A stretch of 64,000 nucleotides of DNA from Phytohabitans rumicis (GTDB lineage: Bacteria > Actinomycetota > Actinomycetes > Mycobacteriales > Micromonosporaceae): NCBI RefSeq assembly GCF_011764445.1, contig NZ_BLPG01000001.1, forward strand, positions 992,001-1,056,000. Reading direction: 5' to 3'. Every line of letters begins with the position of its first letter. Position 1 is the first letter of the stretch. Positions 27,368 through 35,313 of this stretch are shown here, one piece after another. The position numbers and the translations under genes were made by a program. Under the pieces are notes generated by a model. It was not told where the DNA came from and did no database searches. It saw only the letters and a list, made by a program, of their open reading frames with translations.

Positions 27368-28012
27368 TCATTTCTCGGTCGCCCCCGTACGATTGGCGAG
27401 CTCGCGCTGGAGCGCTTCGATCTCCGCCACGCGCTCGCGGGACTGCTCCACTTCCTCATCGTCGATGGAGCCCGCGCCCCAGTTCCACGGTTGCATGATC
27501 TCCCATTCGTCCAAGCGGTGCCGGGCGTCGACGTACTCGTGCAGAACCGTGAGCAGGGACGGGCCGCAGGGCCTGACGGACAGCTCGCCGCCTTCGTCCG
27601 CCGCGTGACGTGAGACGCCGACTACGGTGCTGCGGCCGGCGGCGAGCTCGCCGAGGCGGTAACAGTGGATCAGGTCGCCGTGTGGTACCCGGGGCTGCCG
27701 CTTTTTCGCACCGTGATTGGCCCGGTAGTCGCCGTACAGTTCGAGGAGCGGGACGAGATCGGCGTCCCAGGCGAAGATCCGCCGCTCGGCCCGCCGCAGC
27801 ATCCGCCAGGGCTGTACCACGGGACCACCCCGCTCGAGCGGGACCGCCAACTCCCACGGCAGGTTGGTCGCGTATCCGGGGAGCGCGTCGCCTGGGTCTG
27901 CTTCGACGATCACGAAGAACTCTTCCGGAAACGCGACCCCGAAGCACTCGGCCAGCACCTCACGCGGGCCCAGCCCGACGCATCGGTCCGTTGCACCTGG
28001 TGGCCGCGTCAT
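27368..28012 (-). CDS. Hypothetical protein coupled to the SARP gene
   Basis: This 214-residue protein has a segment VLAECFGVAFPEEFFVIVEA reminiscent of the SMI1/KNR4 (SUKH) fold, then aromatic-rich strands (YATNLPWELAVPL, RIFAWDADLVPLLELYGDY) and an acidic coiled C-terminus (DDEEVEQSRERVAEIEALQR). SUKH proteins are immunity or adaptor proteins in actinomycetes; the assignment is weak. Its ATG overlaps the SARP stop by 4 bases, so it is the distal gene of the RiPP/SARP unit and might serve in self-protection (speculation). Confidence 0.65.
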   Translation of the reverse strand: MTRPPGATDRCVGLGPREVLAECFGVAFPEEFFVIVEADPGDALPGYATNLPWELAVPLERGGPVVQPWRMLRRAERRIFAWDADLVPLLELYGDYRANHGAKKRQPRVPHGDLIHCYRLGELAAGRSTVVGVSRHAADEGGELSVRPCGPSLLTVLHEYVDARHRLDEWEIMQPWNWGAGSIDDEEVEQSRERVAEIEALQRELANRTGATEK

Positions 28013-31000
28013 GCGTTGGTGATCGCCGACGGTGGGGGCAGGATCTGGTCAAGAACTCGCCGAGCTTGTTCCCGGTGGGATCTGGCCAGGGTGACGTCGC
28101 CTTGGCTCTGGTGGGCGCGAGCGCGTAGGAGGAGAGTGCGCGCCTGTGCCAGGCGCTGGCCAGCGGGTCGCTGCAGGGTCAGCGCCTGCTCGCAGTGTTC
28201 CAGGCATCCGGCCGGGTCGCGCATCTCGAGGCTTGCTGTGGCCAGGTGGCTGTGGGCTTGGGCCGCCAGAAGGGTGTATCCCGACCGCTGGGCGATCTCT
28301 AGTGCGCGCGTGGCGCGGTCGTGTGCTCGGCGTGGCTGTTGCTTCGCCAGGTGCAGTTCGCAGGTGGCGAGCAGCGCCTCGACGATGGCACGGTCGTGCT
28401 CGATGCGGTGGGCGAGGTTCGTCGCAGCGTCGAGTCGGTCTTCGGCGTCGGCGAGGTGGCCTCGTCTGATCTGTACGTTGGCCAAGCCGACGAGGGCGAA
28501 GGTGGTCAGCCGTCGGTCGGGTAGGCGTTGGGCGATCTCGAAGGCGGCGGTAAGTGCTTCCAGCGCGGCGTCGTGTCGTTCGGCATCGCGGTGTACGAGT
28601 CCCAGGGTGGTCAGGCCGGCCGCCTCGTCGTGGCGGGCACCGACGCTGCGGCAGATGGCCAGGGAAGCGGTGATGGTGTCGAGTGCCTCAACGAGGTGGC
28701 CCTGCTCCCGGCGTACGGTGGCGAGGTAGCTCAGGGCGATGGCTTCGCCTTGGCGCTGGCCGGTTTCCCGCAGTGGCCGCAGGGCGGCCTCGCCGAATCG
28801 GGCCGCCGCGGGCAGGTTGCCGAGCTGTTCGTGCGCGGCGGCCAGGTTGATGAGGAGGGCGGCCTCGCCGGCCCGGTCGCCAATTCTTCGGTCGATGGCC
28901 AGAGACTGTGTGAACCGGTGGATAGCCTGCCGCGTCTGCCCGAGTTGGGCCAGGGCGATGCCGGAGTTACACAGGGCGGCGGACTGTCCCTGCGGCCACC
29001 GGGCGCGGGCGGCGAGGTCCGCCGCGGCCTGACATTCGTCGATCATCGCGTGGAACTCGGCGACACGCCAGCACAGGACGCCCAGGCTATGTCGCATCGC
29101 AGCCTCCCCCTGCAGGTCGCCGGCCTGCCGCGCCGCGTGCAACCCGGTCAGGACGACAGACCGGTACTGCGGCGGAGCTTGAAGCTGCATGAAGTCGCGC
29201 ACGGCGTCAGCGAGGTGCCAGGCCATCCGGTGCCGGCCGGTCGCGGCGGCGAAGTCCAGACCCGCGACGATGTTCGCCCATTCGTCGTGCAGCCACTGTT
29301 GCGCGTGCGCCTCTGCGGCGAACTCCACGATGGGCACGCCGTCCGGTTGTGGATCGCGGGAGAGCTTGAGGCTGGAGCGTCCGTGGAGCAGGGCCGCGGC
29401 CCTGTCGGTGTTGTGCAGGTAGAAATGCAGCAGGCGGTCGGTGGCGGCATCCTGTTCGGCCGGTGGGTCCTGCTCGGCGGTGAGATTGGCAGCGTGTTGC
29501 AGCAAAAGGTCGTGGCAGGCCAGGCGGGTGTTTTCGGCAACCTTGACCAGGTGGTACCGGGCCAGCTGGTCGATCAACGGTTCTACTGCTTCGACGGGCA
29601 GCCCGGCCAATGCCGCAGCGGCGGCGCTCGCCAGGCCGCCGGGCGCGGGCACAAGTCCGAGCAGCCGGAACAGCCGCTGCGTCTCGGAGGCGAGCGCCTG
29701 GTATGACAGGTCGAACGTGCTTCGTACGCTTGCTGTCTCGTCGCCATCCACCCTCAATTGGGCGACCGGGTCGTGCGCGGCCAACTGGTCGACATAGCGG
29801 TCCACACTGAGGTCGGGTCGGTCCGCCAACCTGGCGCCAGCGATCCGTAGCGCCAACGGAAGGTGTCCGCACAGCTGAGCCAGCCGCGCCGCGGCCGCCC
29901 TGTCGGCGTCGATCCGTTCCACTCCGGCAATCTGGGCAAGCACCTCCACGGCGGCGGCGGGGGCAGAGTGTCGACGGCGAGCCGGCGGGCGCCATCGAGG
30001 GCGACCAGACCGCTGAGCCGGTCCCGGCTGGTCACCAGGGTCATGCAGCCTGGATCGGTCGACAACAGCGGCCGTACCTGGTCCGCCTGGGCCACGTTGT
30101 CCAGGATGATCAGGGCTTTGCGGCCGGCCAGGCGTGACTGGTAGAGCGCGATCTGCGCGTCGATGCCGATCGGGATCTTCTCGGCGGCTACGCCCAGCGA
30201 GATCAGCAACAGTGGCAGCGCCTCGTCGGGCGTCACGCGCGACCCGGGATGGAAGCCACGCATGTCCACAAGGTGCTGACCGTCTGGGAAACGGGAGTTG
30301 TTGCCGCGCGCCCACTGCACGGCCAGGCTGGTCTTGCCTACGCCGCCGTTTCCGGTGATGAGGACCAGCCGCTCCCGTGCCTTGTGGAGCGCGTCGAGCT
30401 GGCTCAGTTCGCGTTCGCGTCCGACCAGCGGGAGCGACGTCTGTGCTGTCTCCGGGGCGGTCGACCGCGGGTGCGGTGCTGCCACCGTGAGGGGACCGCC
30501 GGCAACGGCCAGGTCGAATGAGGGTTCCCGGTCATCGAGTATCGCCTGATGCAGCCGGTCGAGTTCGCCGCTGGGCTCGATGCCGAGCTCGTCGACGAAT
30601 CGCCTCCTCAACTGGCGAAAGGTCGCCAACGCGTCCACCCGACGTCCACATCGATGCAGCGCGATCAGTTGCAAGCCTGCCAAGCGTTCCCGCAGGGGGA
30701 ACTCTGTCGACATCGTCGACAGCTCGGCGACGACCTCGTGATGGCGTCCGAGCAGAAGGTCCAGCGCCACGCGGTGCTCCAGGGCTGCCAGCCGTTCTCC
30801 CTCCAGCCCTGGGATCACGTTGTCGGCCAGCCACGATCCATAGACGTCGGCCAGTGGTACGCCGCGCCACAGCGCCAGTCCGATCCGAAGCAGGGCATGG
30901 GCCTGTGCCGGCTGGCTCTGGCCTGCCGCACGCGCCGCGCGCCGGAACCGATGGAGATCCACTGTAGACAGATCGACGTCCAGGCGATAGCCACCCTGCG

Positions 31001-31261
31001 ACGTGAGCAGTTCGGCGTCGGTGGGGACAGTCCGGCCAGAGCCAGCACGCGACGGATCCTGGACGCGCATACCTGTACGGCGTTGCGAGCCCGCGGCGGC
31101 GGCGACGTGTCCCACAAGGCCGTCACGAACCGCTCCAGAGACACCACCAAGCCGGCATCCAGCAACAACAAGGCCAATACGGTCCGCTGCTGCGGCGTCA
31201 ATGGGCCCAGTCGATGACCCGCCTTCCAGATTTCCACCGCGCCCAGCAGGCGAAACTCCAC
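28009..31261 (-). pseudogene. AfsR-type SARP regulator (two one-base deletions)
   Basis: Joined across frames, this is a regulator of about 1084 residues. It has an OmpR-type winged helix (EFRLLGAVEIWKAG, LTPQQRTVLALLLLDAG), a bacterial transcriptional activation domain (HALLRIGLALWRGVPLADVY, DELGIEPSGELDRLHQAIL), an NB-ARC ATPase (VLITGNGGVGKTSLAVQW) and about nine TPR repeats to the C-terminus. The frame is lost near 31020 (CTGTCCCCACCG) and near 29960 (a GCGGCGGGGGC run). Each break is explained by one missing base. AfsR proteins activate secondary-metabolite genes by binding direct repeats. It follows the RiPP genes on the same strand and is the likely activator of the boxes at 34169-34196. 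If the breaks are sequencing errors, it is intact. Confidence 0.85.
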
Positions 31262-31358
31262 ACCGTGACCGGTCTCGTTCAGACGTACTCCCCGATTCAG
31301 GCGGGTGTATGCAGGTCGGCGCCCATGATCTCACGGCCACCGATGCCCGATCAACGAA

Positions 31359-31580
31359 TCAAGGGATACAGCGAATCGACCGAGGACACGACGTCGAAAT
31401 CAGGGACCCCATCGACCTGTCCGGCGAGGCGGCCGACGGCACCTGGCATTGAAAAGGCAGTCCCGCCGTCGCGGCGATCGCAGGTTCGGCACAACTGATA
31501 CCGGTTCCACGGGTGTCCGCTGCGTCCTCCGCACGATGGTACGGCCCCGGCGACGGGCCTACCCTCTCAGGAGCCGTCAT
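31359..31580 (-). CDS. Small Cys-containing ORF coupled to the M50 protease
   Basis: This 73-codon frame starts at an ATG overlapping the protease stop (ATGA). The product is Pro/Ala/Ser-rich with four cysteines (GISCAEP, FQCQVP, TSCPRS, RCIP). It resembles nothing I know, and codon use is less convincing than in the neighbours. It could be a second substrate, an accessory protein or chance. The remaining bases to the SARP start (31262-31358) show nothing else. Confidence 0.3.
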   Translation of the reverse strand: MTAPERVGPSPGPYHRAEDAADTRGTGISCAEPAIAATAGLPFQCQVPSAASPDRSMGSLISTSCPRSIRCIP

Positions 31581-32817
31581 GCGCTGAAGCTCCGACCCAT
31601 CACTCGGCGTAGTTGGTTCCCGTGGTTGCGCCACCATGCCTTGCACCACAGGACCTGTACGAGTCCGGTGACGGACAGGACCGCGGCACCGTCCAAGGCG
31701 TCCGCGACGTCGCCGGTACCGAGGCCATGCACCGCCCGGCCGAGCAGGTGCACGGTGAACGGCATGGTAATGGTCACCGCGGCACCGAGGCAGGTGATGG
31801 TTCCGGCTACGACGATGGCCGTGTACCCGCGGACGACGCGGCGTTCTCTGAGGGGTAGGCCGAGGCTCGGGTCAGGTGTGGCAGGCGATGCCTGGCGTCG
31901 TAGCCGTTGAACGAGCCTTTTGCCCAGATAGCGTGCGTAGGCCGTTCCGTCCGCATAGAGGTTCCGGCATCTGGTCATCTCCTGGAGCAGGAAGTACGCG
32001 TCCGTGCGCATGAAGATCAGAAGTTCGCCGGCGAGCGCGGCCGCGGTCAACGTGGCGATCACGCTGGCGGCGGTGCGAATGACGCCCGGCTCGGCGACCG
32101 CCGACACCGCAAGCGCTGTCGCGCAGACAAGCGCGTCCAAGGCGATGCCGGCCGCATACACGATCATGCGGTGCCACCGGGGGATGCCCATACGCCGCTG
32201 ACGTCTGTCTCCGCGACAAGGAACTGCAGCCGAGTGCCGAGCCGGATCCGACCCGGGACGCCCGCGGCGCGGGCCGCGGCCAGGTGGGCCAGCTCGTGCA
32301 GGTACAGCAGGACCCACCCGATGGCGGCATGAGTGACGAGCACCACGGATCCGTGCCCGCTCCACAGGAGAGCGTGGTAGCTGGGCAGCGGGGCACGGCT
32401 CAGGAAAGCGACGACAAGTCCGGCGACGGTGATGCTCGCGAACGCGGCGAGGAAGGTGCGTGACAGGAGCCAACCGACGTGCCGCGGGCGTAGCCAGGGC
32501 AGGCTGACACGCATGGCAGGCTGCCCAGGTTGAGGATGACCGTCCAGTTCGGCGATGAAGCCGAGCGCGAGCAGGTCTTCGACGAACTCAGCCAGATCGA
32601 CCTGTTCCCCAGTGTTTTCGGCGATTGTGCGCTCGGCGTCTTGTACGGTGACGCCTTCGGCGAGCAAAGCCAGGGCACGCGCCCCAACGGGCGGCACGGC
32701 AATGAACTCTCCGGAGTCGACCCGCCCGACGATGGTGTCGGCGCCGTCCGTTCTGACGGCCAGCCTGCGCAGGAGGACAGTGGACGTGCCGCGCACGGTA
32801 GCCATCGTCGGCGTCAT
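31577..32817 (-). pseudogene. M50-type intramembrane metalloprotease with PqqD-like N-terminus (one-base deletion)
   Basis: The reconstructed protein has about 413 residues. Residues 1-92 resemble PqqD-type leader-binding domains (GRVDSGEFIAVPPVGARALA, DLAEFVEDLLALGFIAELDG). A membrane core follows with the zinc motif HELAH at 174-178, the LQFLVAETDVSGVW segment and, after the break, a second motif GIALDALVC plus three more membrane helices. The frame is lost at about 32190 (TATGGGCATCCCC), where one G is missing between VW and GIPRWHR. Putative peptide zinc metalloproteases of this type accompany RiPP genes and may cut or export modified peptides. The ATG overlaps the ThiF stop (ATGA). Confidence 0.78.
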
Positions 32818-33954
32818 GCCGCCGGCCGGCAGGCCACGCAGTCCGCCCGCCGCGGATGCCGTACCGCGACGGGCTCCCCGGGCACCGCAAGGTTGAGGCC
32901 GAACACCATTCCCGGGTTGCCAGCGACATTCGGGTCAGCAGGGCGATGACCCAGTGGGCGACGAGCTGGCCTGATATGACGGCCGTTACCGCCGTGACGG
33001 GGTTTTCCGCAGCTCGGGGGAGGATCTCTCATGATCTTCTGTGTCCGGCGGCGAGGTACTCTCGGCCTCCCGTAGGCACTCCCAGCAGGCGCCGACGCCG
33101 GGCTGGTATCCGCCCGCGGTGAGCATCGGGCCCCGGTATCCGCCGTCGGCCCAGGGGATGCCCGCGGTCAAACAGGCCAGGTTGGCCCATCGGCGAATGT
33201 CCGCTGGCTGGTCCGCGCACTGGGCGAGCACATCGCAGCCCTCGATCACGTCCGCGATGTCCTGCTGGGAACCGATCCGCCGCTGCTCGCCGGTGACCTC
33301 GATGTCGGAGTTCAGGCGGCGCAGGCGGGCTACGGTGGCCTCGACCTTGGCCTTGCCGAGATCGTCCTCGGTGTACAGGATCTGCCGATTGAGGTTGGAC
33401 AGCTCGACCACGTCAGCGTCGACGCAGTGAAGGTGTCCGATGCCGGACGCGGCGAGCGCGAGCGCGGCCGAGCCGCCGGTCCCACCGACCCCGAGCACGA
33501 CCACCTTGGCTCTTTTGAGACGTTGCTGGACCTCCCAGGGACTGCTGCGGGGGGTGAGATCGACCCAGCTGTAGTACCGGCTGCCCCGCCGGTAGCGTTC
33601 CTGCTCCCGCGACGTCAGGTCCGCGGGCGGGTCGGCACCCGCGTCCTCGACGTGGCCGGCGGTGGTCAGCTGTTCCAGGCCAGCGCGGACATCGTCGTCC
33701 GAAACGGCTGGGTGAGCGCGGCAGACCTCGGCAACGATGTCCTGCTCGACGCGCGTTCCGTCGGTGGCCCGAATGAGGGTCCACAGCCACCCGTCCGGGT
33801 CCTCGATCTCGGCGGCGAGGCCGTAGACGCCGCCGCCGATCCGGACCGTTCCCGCCCGGGTGCGGTACGGCCGATGCTCGAGCTTGAAACGCGGCTTGAA
33901 CATGAGTTGCCTCCTCGCCAGGGTCGGGCCCCTTGCGGGCGGTTGCCAGCGCAC
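32814..33954 (-). pseudogene. ThiF/E1-like adenylyltransferase with leader-binding domain (two one-base deletions)
   Basis: The reconstructed protein has about 380 residues. Positions 1-90 form a small winged-helix-like domain (KLEHRPYRTRAGTVRIGGGV, AGLEQLTTAGHVED) as in leader-peptide recognition parts of RiPP cyclodehydratase partners. The E1 domain has the nucleotide loop GVGGTGG at 138-144 and VDADVVELSNLNRQ at 161-174. It also has a zinc CxxC at 273-276 (CWEC) and a second CxxC near the end (DCVAC). Frame is lost near 33005 (GGAAAACCCC) and near 32945. Family members adenylate peptide carboxyls (MccB) or Glu side chains (PaaA-like). It follows the 34-residue precursor and couples to the protease. 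Confidence 0.82.
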
Positions 33955-33970
33955 AGAACCCTTGACGCGT

Positions 33971-34000
33971 GCCTTGGGTACGGCACGCCGTACCCAAGGC
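33971..34000 (-). terminator. Strong hairpin between precursor and modifying genes
   Basis: GCCTTGGGTACGGC and GCCGTACCCAAGGC are perfect 14-bp arms around a 2-base centre, so a 12-bp stem with a 6-base loop will form. No U-tract follows. It lies 12 bases after the precursor stop and 16 bases before the ThiF ATG. It is placed to give more precursor than enzyme mRNA by partial termination or 3'-end protection. Confidence 0.75.
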
Positions 34001-34012
34001 GCAGCAGGACCG

Positions 34013-34117
34013 CTAGCTCTGTTCCTGGTGACAGAGCTTCGTGGTCTCGATCCGGTCCAGCTTGCGGATGACGATCTTCTTCGCCGCCTTCGGAACCTCG
34101 ATCTTCTTCTCGGCCAT
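34013..34117 (-). CDS. Candidate RiPP precursor peptide, 34 residues
   Basis: This peptide starts MAEKKIEVPKAAKKIVIRK, continues LDRIET and ends TKLCHQEQS. The N-terminal two-thirds is Lys-rich and amphipathic like a RiPP leader. The short C-terminus holds the only Cys, flanked by His and polar residues, and is the likely core. The ATG is preceded by an ideal ribosome site (AAGGAGGTGA, 5 bases from the start), far stronger than most genes here. It is too short for ordinary gene finders. The next genes are an E1-like enzyme with a leader-binding domain and a peptide metalloprotease, the main support for the call. Confidence 0.8.
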   Translation of the reverse strand: MAEKKIEVPKAAKKIVIRKLDRIETTKLCHQEQS

Positions 34118-34168
34118 GTGAGTCACCTCCTTCGCGCGTCCGGCACGGGGAGAAGGCAACCAGGGTGG

Positions 34169-34196
34169 GTTGAGAATCCGTTGAGTTGGCGTTGAG
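34169..34196 (-). promoter_or_regulatory. Three direct repeats spaced 11 bp: SARP boxes
   Basis: CTCAAC (minus strand) occurs three times with starts exactly 11 bp apart (plus-strand GTTGAG at 34169, 34180 and 34191). Direct 6-7-mers at 11-bp steps are the hallmark of SARP-controlled promoters. They lie 52 bases upstream of the precursor ATG. No good -10 hexamer follows, typical of activator-dependent promoters. Confidence 0.7.
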
Positions 34197-34469
34197 TGAT
34201 GATCAGCAGCGGCTGGTCATCGGACAGCAACCCGAACAGGAACAACCATGCCCGCCGGCGCGGCTCCACCCACCGAGCCGGCTCGCGATCGCGGCGAACC
34301 CGGTATTGAACCCCGGCCAGCCACTCCTCGGCGTCTACGCTGTGGCTGTTGGGGCCGCGTCGAGCTCACGGTGCACGACCTGCCCGACCGGACGCGTTGC
34401 CGCAGCTCGGGCACATTGCCGTCGGTGCAACGCTCAAAACCGTGCCGATCATCAGACCAGCGTAATCTG

Positions 34470-35313
34470 GTGTGGTCCGACAACGGCGCGAGCGTAGTCG
34501 CACAGAACTTCCTCGACACACGCACAGTGGACATCACGATCGACTCGGTGGCGCTGGGCCACACCGCATCGGCGCGCATCATCCTGCCGAACCGATTTGG
34601 ACGGCAGGCCGGCGCCTCATGGCCGGTTCTGTATCTGCTGCACGGCGGTTACGGCAGCTACGTGGACTGGACGAAGAACAGCGACATCGCGGGCCTCGTC
34701 CGTGAGCGTGACGTGCTGGTCGTCATGCCGGACGGCTGGAGCCTCGGCTTCTACACGGACTGGTGGGCGCGCGGCGGCCGCAAGCCGGGCTGGGAAACGT
34801 TCCACCTGGTGGAGCTGGTGCAGATCCTGGAGCGCGGCCTCCACGCCGCCGACCGGCGCGCGATTGCCGGTCTTTCGATGGGTGGCTTCGGCGCGGTCTC
34901 GTATGCAGGTCGCCGGCCGGGCTTCTTCCGCGCGGTCGCCTCCTTCAGCGGTACGCTCGACACCCTGCACCCGACCGTCGAACCGATCTCCCCCGGTCCG
35001 TACGCGACGTGGCTGCTGCAGGCGCACAACCCAGCAGACCTCCTGCAAAACCTGCGTGGCACGAAGCTGTTCGTGTCCTGCGGCGATGGGCAGGTCGGCC
35101 CGTTGGATCCACCTGGCACCGATCCCCGCCAGCATCGGCGTCCAGTACGAGGCCGCACAGGCCCGGCAGAACCGGGAGTTCTTCGCGCGCGCCACACGCC
35201 TTGGACTCGACCTCACCTTCGAGATCTACCCCGGCTCGCACTCGTGGCCGTATTGGGCACGTGAGCTCGAGAAGGCGTTCCCGCTCCTGATGCGGGCCCT
35301 CCGGGCCGGGTAG
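34470..35313 (+). pseudogene. Esterase (antigen 85/esterase D-like), N-terminus lost and frameshifted
   Basis: The sequence keeps the alpha/beta-hydrolase features of secreted actinomycete esterases: TVDITIDSVALGHTA, WPVLYLLHGGYGSYVDW, the nucleophile elbow GLSMGGFGA and the His region YPGSHSWPYWARELE. The signal peptide expected before it is absent; a GTG at 34470 is the first usable start. One extra C in the CCCC run near 35130 moves the C-terminus (ASIGVQYEAAQARQN onward) to another frame. Both defects suggest decay. Confidence 0.72.

Follow-up and report, generated by a model that had tools for sequence, protein, structure and literature searches.

The question raised by positions 31.5-34.2 kb of the analysed window, a 64-kb stretch of Phytohabitans rumicis DNA, is whether a 34-codon open reading frame (ORF) and the two enzyme genes behind it form a maturation unit for a ribosomally synthesized and post-translationally modified peptide (RiPP), and to which kind of RiPP enzyme the first of the two, an E1/ThiF-like adenylyltransferase, belongs. 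The features concerned are given in the order of transcription (RRE: RiPP recognition element, i.e. leader-binding domain):

34126..34132, minus strand: ribosome-binding site AAGGAGG, 8 bases 5' of the precursor ATG
34013..34117 (including the stop codon), minus strand: precursor peptide gene, 34 aa, MAEKKIEVPKAAKK-IVIRKLDRI-ETT-KLCHQEQS
33628..33903, minus strand: E1 residues 1-92, predicted N-terminal RRE-like (PaaA-like) leader-binding domain (profile and model)
33058..33534, minus strand: E1 residues 124-282, ThiF adenylyltransferase domain with GVGGTGG, R173/Q174, K186, D231 and a Zn-type CWEC
32814..33010, minus strand: E1 C-terminal part in two other frames (three-frame reading, ending in CVACRPAA and TGA)
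32164..32817, minus strand: first frame of an M50-type membrane metalloprotease, 217 aa, HELAH at 32284-32298
32542..32790, minus strand: M50 residues 10-92, predicted PqqD-type N-terminal RRE (profile traces and model)
31577..32200, minus strand: M50 protease, part beyond the frame change near 32200

A conserved precursor, E1 and M50 unit

The short ORF was found as the initial annotation had proposed it: it runs on the minus strand from an ATG at 34117 to a stop codon ending at 34013 (full 34-residue translation: MAEKKIEVPKAAKKIVIRKLDRIETTKLCHQEQS), and the strong ribosome site AAGGAGG is present at 34132-34126. After the ETT tripeptide the tail reads KLCHQEQS, which includes Cys29 and ends in QS. 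The precursor motif occurs a single time within the window.

The E1 gene starts with an ATG at 33903 (minus strand); its product is homologous to ThiF/MoeB/Ube1 and is assigned to ThiF by Pfam (E 1.5e-42), while the PaaA-like_N family scores weakly on the window protein alone (E 0.1). A profile built from 49 E1 sequences (P0005 of the window and 48 others from the 86 loci described below) matched MccB over positions 97-362 (5.8e-48) and PaaA (5ff5) over positions 3-222 (1.2e-47), hence with the RRE covered. The predicted structure of the window E1 piece (pLDDT 89.8, final 18 residues poor) retrieved the same two proteins with Foldseek (MccB 4.6e-21, PaaA 4.7e-19, over 241-304 columns). Arg173, Gln174, Lys186, Asp231, Cys273 and Cys276 are invariant across the 49-row alignment; mapped by offset, the ATP-site residues stand at a constant +6 relative to Arg167/Lys180/Asp225 of EnfB (numbering of PMC12250964) and at +7 relative to Q167/K179 of IndF (numbering of PMC12150305; both papers are cited here and below from the text available). 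In NCBIfam no E1-type equivalog lay above its cut-off. Since the E1 profile matches both MccB and PaaA, RRE included, the enzyme is placed, as judged from its sequence, among the ThiF-like adenylyltransferase (TLAT) RiPP enzymes, i.e. those of microcin C, pantocin, GRC, enterofaecin and ind; of the hallmarks of this group, a ThiF domain with the ATP/Mg residues, a fused N-terminal RRE and a short conserved precursor alongside were found.

The M50-type protease begins with the ATG at 32817 and carries HELAH at residues 174-178. His174, Glu175 and His178 are invariant in an alignment of 44 rows (P0003 of the window and 43 of the 44 listed M50 proteins; L120 was left out), and in the model (pLDDT 91.8) HELAH lies within the helix 156-184, in agreement with an HExxH motif in a membrane helix. 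PqqD scores weakly on the window protein alone (Pfam, E 0.03); with the M50 model, Foldseek ranks 1-14 were all occupied by RiPP proteins (TbiB1 and others bearing an RRE or RRE fold). Neither the precursors nor the M50 proteins tested nor the first M50 frame of the window had a family in NCBIfam; the daptide model NF041824 reached the M50 only at E 0.28. The E1 stop and the M50 start overlap as ATGA, in which the stop is that of the third E1 frame, and an ATGA or GTGA overlap recurs at 12 of 18 E1-M50 junctions of relatives. The initial description of an E1 with a leader-binding N-terminus, followed with an ATGA overlap by a HELAH protease with a PqqD-like N-terminus, was accordingly borne out: profile and fold searches back the leader-binding domain of either enzyme (for the E1, the family profile that aligns with PaaA from residue 3), though both are weak in Pfam on the window alone.

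With the M50 piece P0003 as query (E 0.001), matches were obtained in 18 of 61 related genomes (its own included), and six of the 20 stretches around them also encode an E1 (L029-L034). Scanning genomes with the E1 alignment yielded at least 490 relatives, of which the best 80 were kept; among these 80, an M50 gene stands near the E1 gene on the same strand in 44, and most are from actinomycetes (exceptions: two cyanobacteria, L089 and L121, and one archaeal metagenome bin, L126). The Glycomyces relatives are closest to the window by E1 (59% identity), and in the E1 tree (L034 left out) the window protein stands beside a Glycomyces pair with weak support (87/46). Intact E1 genes are present in Glycomyces (L063, L076) and Micromonospora (L049-L052). 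After removal of the duplicates L053 (of L030) and L125 (of L032), the 86 E1 loci were reduced to 84.

Short ORFs with a start codon and the pattern [IVLM]x[IVLM]Rx[LM][DEGAQ][KRTA]xE[TPI] were found in 68 of the 84 loci (75 peptides), namely in 45 of the 48 with an M50 gene and in 23 of the 36 without; the pattern was absent from the reversed sequences of the 84 loci and from 14 loci that contain the M50 but no E1. Two peptides with Gly for Glu (L056, L062) raised the sum to 77 peptides in 70 loci; 60 of the peptides share the strand of the E1 gene, and 17 precede it in divergent orientation. A stricter pattern, demanding a hydrophobic residue before Glu, gave an undercount (41 peptides, 38 of 86 loci), and a looser one was discarded as useless alone (53 matches in reversed sequence); an all-against-all comparison of small ORFs recovered the precursors of Streptosporangiales and, with both strands and all starts allowed, the divergent ones of Streptomyces. 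The plasmid collection contained no match at megablast level.

The shared block IxIRxLDKxETT is usually followed by 7-9 residues. Among the 71 distinct peptides (that of the window included; lengths 22-57 aa), Arg is conserved in all, Leu in 70 and Glu in 69; (V/I)R precedes K or R in 43. The tail after ETT measures 7-9 residues in 58 peptides, exactly 8 in 41, and its last residue is Asn (27), Gly (16), Thr (9), Ser (8), Ala (5) or another (6), so that N/G/T/S make up 60. Cys occurs in 25 tails, including that of the window, and is absent from 46; its distance from Glu is four residues, as in GrcA, in 11 peptides and five (E-T-T-x-x-C) in eight, i.e. in the window, the Glycomyces relatives and four other kinds. 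Synonymous differences per site (pS) exceeded nonsynonymous ones (pN) in 26 of 30 non-independent precursor pairs.

The operon of precursor, E1 and M50 is a real unit, more than chance arrangement, as indicated by a motif that occurs once in the window and never in the reversed loci. In 45 of 48 loci the short ORF is kept beside the related ThiF-M50 pair, and one short precursor with two RRE-bearing enzymes amounts to the RiPP-like maturation unit initially suggested: at the level of sequence, the family consists of the precursor block and an adjoining RRE-ThiF enzyme, often translationally coupled to an RRE-M50 protease.

Three variations of the precursor were observed. In Streptomyces-type loci (L073, L078, L086, L088, L091, L109, L111, L116, L118 and others) a MANKIEIRPLDKKETTGDSGGNGGA-type precursor is transcribed away from the E1 gene and, being divergent, is missed by simple downstream searches. 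Pseudonocardiaceae E1 loci without the motif peptide contain a short acidic ORF of the MIEFHEVDDEEMTFSGTDSEA type just before the E1 gene (L071:7905-7970, L081:917-979, L128:7916-7990), perhaps a different precursor class. In Nonomuraea L056 and L062, Gly-Pro-Thr replaces Glu-Thr/Pro-Thr and the stretch examined has no M50, while the sister L065 keeps Glu; decay after protease loss is a possible explanation.

Candidate chemistry and its alternatives

ThiF-like RiPP enzymes adenylate a carboxylate, which is then attacked by differing nucleophiles (PMC12150305). MccB, EnfB and IndF use the C-terminus of the peptide, GrcB and PaaA an internal Glu (PMC12150305, PMC12250964), the site of GrcB being given both ways in the review (PMC12250964). 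A pathway of this kind, in which the E1 modifies a carboxylate of the tail and the M50 removes the leader, is the reading that we regard as probable for the present family. The RRE of the E1 would hold the precursor via the IxIRxL block, and the ThiF domain would use ATP/Mg to adenylate a tail carboxylate, the likeliest being that of the C-terminus, which MccB, EnfB and IndF use; a nucleophile of the tail (Cys29 in the window; Ser, Thr or Asn elsewhere) would capture it and close a small ring. The RRE of the M50 would bind the same leader; the protease would then cut near ETT and free, on the outside or within the membrane, a product of about 8-12 residues that probably acts as a signal or antibiotic and is subject to SARP-type control. 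We infer this sequence of adenylation, capture and leader removal from the conserved residues and domains.

Several observations weigh against this pathway. Peptidase_M50 (PF02163) remained below the Pfam cut-off in the window (13.6 versus 27.2 bits, E 0.043) and also in the relatives L044, L038 and L076; the profile of the M50 N-terminus matched only the lasso RREs TbiB1 and TfuB1, and weakly (E 0.012 and 0.048), a larger alignment gave the same two and a PqqD family protein at E 0.11-0.39, and no Foldseek match of the M50 model reached E 0.001 or better. The precursor pattern was widened after the peptides had been inspected and demands Glu; a peptide of the IxIRxLDKxETT type is lacking in 14 of the 84 loci, the M50-bearing loci without the pattern being L034 (cut off), L120 and L126, and 36 loci have no M50 in the stretch examined. 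Among the neighbours (labels by eye), each transporter family reaches 10 of the 84 loci at most.

Which carboxylate is activated bears on the main alternative. The C-terminal route is put narrowly ahead, because the tail is of nearly fixed length and its last residue small. The other route, adenylation of the Glu24 side chain and attack by Cys29 to a Glu-Cys thiolactone as made by GrcB (without Cys: a Ser/Thr lactone or a PaaA-like backbone imide), is the less probable one; in its favour, Glu accompanies the E1: it is present in 69 of the 71 distinct E1-linked peptides, whereas Glu precedes T in none of 32 peptides of the M50-only loci. GrcB and PaaA indeed activate an internal Glu (PMC12250964), and the spacings of four and five residues given above would suit such a ring in 11 and eight peptides, respectively. 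However, 46 tails have no Cys, the search pattern itself required Glu and so under-counts exceptions (two are known, L056 and L062 with Gly), and the conserved Glu may instead serve leader recognition or cleavage. A microcin C-like peptidyl-nucleotide, with AMP or another nucleotide joined to the C-terminal residue, is improbable: MccB is a top match by profile and model and acts on a C-terminal Asn (PMC12150305), which 27 of the 71 peptides share (15 GN, 12 SN), but 44 end otherwise, that of the window in Ser, and inspection by eye (no profile search) of neighbour families present in at least five loci brought up no MccC/MccF-like gene. The ThiF/MoeB/Ube1 homology and the 16 peptides ending in Gly might recall a ubiquitin-like or sulfur-carrier system with the peptide as the carrier activated by the E1. 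This was rejected as highly implausible on account of length and C-terminus: a beta-grasp fold needs more than 22-57 residues (34 in the window, ending in QS), only two of the 71 peptides terminate in GG, and the E1 carries an RRE.

A different matter is whether the window copy works at all; it could just as well be a decaying or mis-assembled relic from which nothing is made, whatever the family does. The initial annotation referred to intact genes elsewhere, but did not state the frame breaks of the E1 and M50 genes in the window: the E1 keeps to one frame as far as about 33010 and uses two others from there to 32814 (changes near 33010 and 32910), and the M50 changes frame near 32200 and continues to 31577. 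The adjoining SARP gene is likewise split over two frames. The breaks appear local, since rpoB of the same genome is a single open frame of 1176 codons and a livM-like gene of the window (named by eye) is open too. On the other hand, the precursor, the RRE and active site of the E1 and HELAH are intact, and the frame map contains further same-strand frame switches in the window that may be gene ends or breaks; assembly indels are a candidate cause.

Neighbouring genes and loci without E1

Next to the unit, a SARP-type regulator is encoded at 28009..31340 (minus strand) by two overlapping ORFs in different frames (BTAD and AAA, then TPR; Pfam BTAD 1.6e-35, TPR_12 2.6e-32), a possible cluster regulator. 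Upstream of the cluster, 34248-35313 (plus strand) comprises two overlapping ORFs, esterase-like by eye and possibly another frame-broken gene; Pfam found nothing in 34600-35310. Among the 84 E1 loci, a DUF6879 protein (one member: Pfam 1.9e-30) is encoded in 30, SARP/NB-ARC/TPR regulators in 22, and MFS-like and ABC-like families (by eye) in 10 each.

In the 14 E1-free stretches of related genomes (L035-L048), the same PqqD-M50 stands beside two types of short peptide, MKKLxVRKLEPVKTSA..C and MKKIxVRKxExVRLTSAAxPLYxGxC. By pattern, 32 such peptides were found in 13 of the 14 loci, and one more by eye in L042; they seemingly represent a larger peptide family without a name. Upstream of the M50 gene, between 6 and 11 short and nearly identical precursor genes are arrayed (L046:9026-10686, L047:9164-10018, L040:9437-10419; minus strand), next to a SARP-like gene and, in L040 and L046, to the gene of a TPR protein of about 700 aa. 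In E1-free loci this conserved TPR protein, which bears the motif LRGPYTxxG at its N-terminus, is encoded after the M50 gene (L039:8338-10479, L040:5933-8032, also L041, L043, L045 and L046; TPR assigned in L040).

The (I/V)R block is common to E1-bearing and M50-only loci, which would fit a leader read by the RRE of the M50 and, where present, by that of the E1. Tentatively, the whole may be viewed as a large new RiPP branch in which a common (I/V)R(K/R)x leader is recognised by the RRE of the M50 and, in the E1-bearing half, also by that of the PaaA/MccB-like E1: the protease-peptide pair, found alone in the 14 M50-only loci with up to ten or more precursor copies per array, might be the older core, to which the E1 was added together with Glu-Thr-Thr, and Glu24 or the C-terminus might be closed into a new short macrocycle.

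Comparison with known RiPP systems

The range of new peptide linkages traced to TLAT enzymes is growing fast; the 2025 papers describe how GrcB makes a Glu-Cys thiolactone, EnfB a macrocyclic imide and IndF an indolylamide, and treat enterobacteria, Bacillus, Streptococcus and Enterococcus (PMC12150305, PMC12250964). The available text of PMC12250964 contains no word beginning with actino, no Streptomyces and no M50, and the literature search, with most subscription journals outside it, recognised no paper on the RRE-ThiF/RRE-M50 branch. The present E1s have very probably been counted already, since the ind paper tallies 27,400 RRE-ThiF fusions with several unexplored clusters in its supplement (PMC12150305). 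With at least 490 E1 relatives, intact genes in culture-collection actinomycetes and a near-invariant leader, the family is directly assayable with two genes, a synthetic peptide of 34-42 residues and a mass spectrometer; it could tell activation of an internal Glu from that of the C-terminus within a single enzyme family, and show if both enzymes read a common leader through their separate RREs.

Microcin C7 (MccA/MccB) provides the best profile and model match and shares the C-terminal Asn with part of the family, but MccA has seven residues and no leader, whereas the window peptide ends in Ser and the E1 has an M50 partner. Pantocin A (PaaP/PaaA) is closest in full-length architecture, PaaA aligning from residue 3 through the RRE; it differs in the Glu-Glu-Asn core of PaaP, absent from the window peptide, with its follower, in the PaaB oxygenase and in the PaaC exporter (PMC12250964). 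The GRC system (GrcA/GrcB) likewise has an RRE-ThiF enzyme and forms a Glu-Cys thiolactone, and Glu and Cys stand near each other in 25 of the 71 present peptides, that of the window included; in the window, however, Glu24 and Cys29 are five instead of four residues apart and Cys is not last, and GRC has a transporter, a separate RRE and two radical SAM enzymes that do not belong to the present unit (no radical SAM enzyme was recognised by eye near 31.5-34.2 kb, without a profile scan of all neighbours).

Enterofaecin (EnfA/EnfB) resembles the present unit in its RRE-ThiF enzyme, very short precursor and ATP/Mg residues (same by offset), and the (V/I)RKA leader motif required by EnfB (PMC12250964) is close to (V/I)RKL here; it differs in the core WWIVI (window tail: KLCHQEQS), the host range (Firmicutes), the transporters and quorum-sensing regulators, and no M50 is mentioned for it in the text available. 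The ind system (IndA/IndF/IndP) likewise combines a minimal precursor, an RRE-ThiF enzyme and a metalloprotease, and its core starts with EDTT as compared with ETT here (PMC12150305); its protease, however, is an M16 enzyme instead of a HELAH protease with an M50 profile trace, it has a transporter, and its Trp-Ile indolylamide is formed on the core NWYFI, whereas a Trp-x-x-Ile end is absent here. Membrane M50 proteases that cut RiPP precursors are known from pearlin (TglG, TmoG) and epipeptide (EpeP) biosynthesis (PMC10885120); compared by description, the present protease differs in its N-terminal RRE and E1 partner. Neither this precursor nor an RRE-M50 partner belongs to any TLAT class as described in the available text of PMC12150305 and PMC12250964. 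The initial view that RiPP ThiF enzymes act on MccB- or PaaA-type substrates only does not hold, as GrcB, EnfB and IndF differ, and neither does the view that no named class fits: the E1 belongs with the ThiF-like RiPP enzymes of the 2025 papers.

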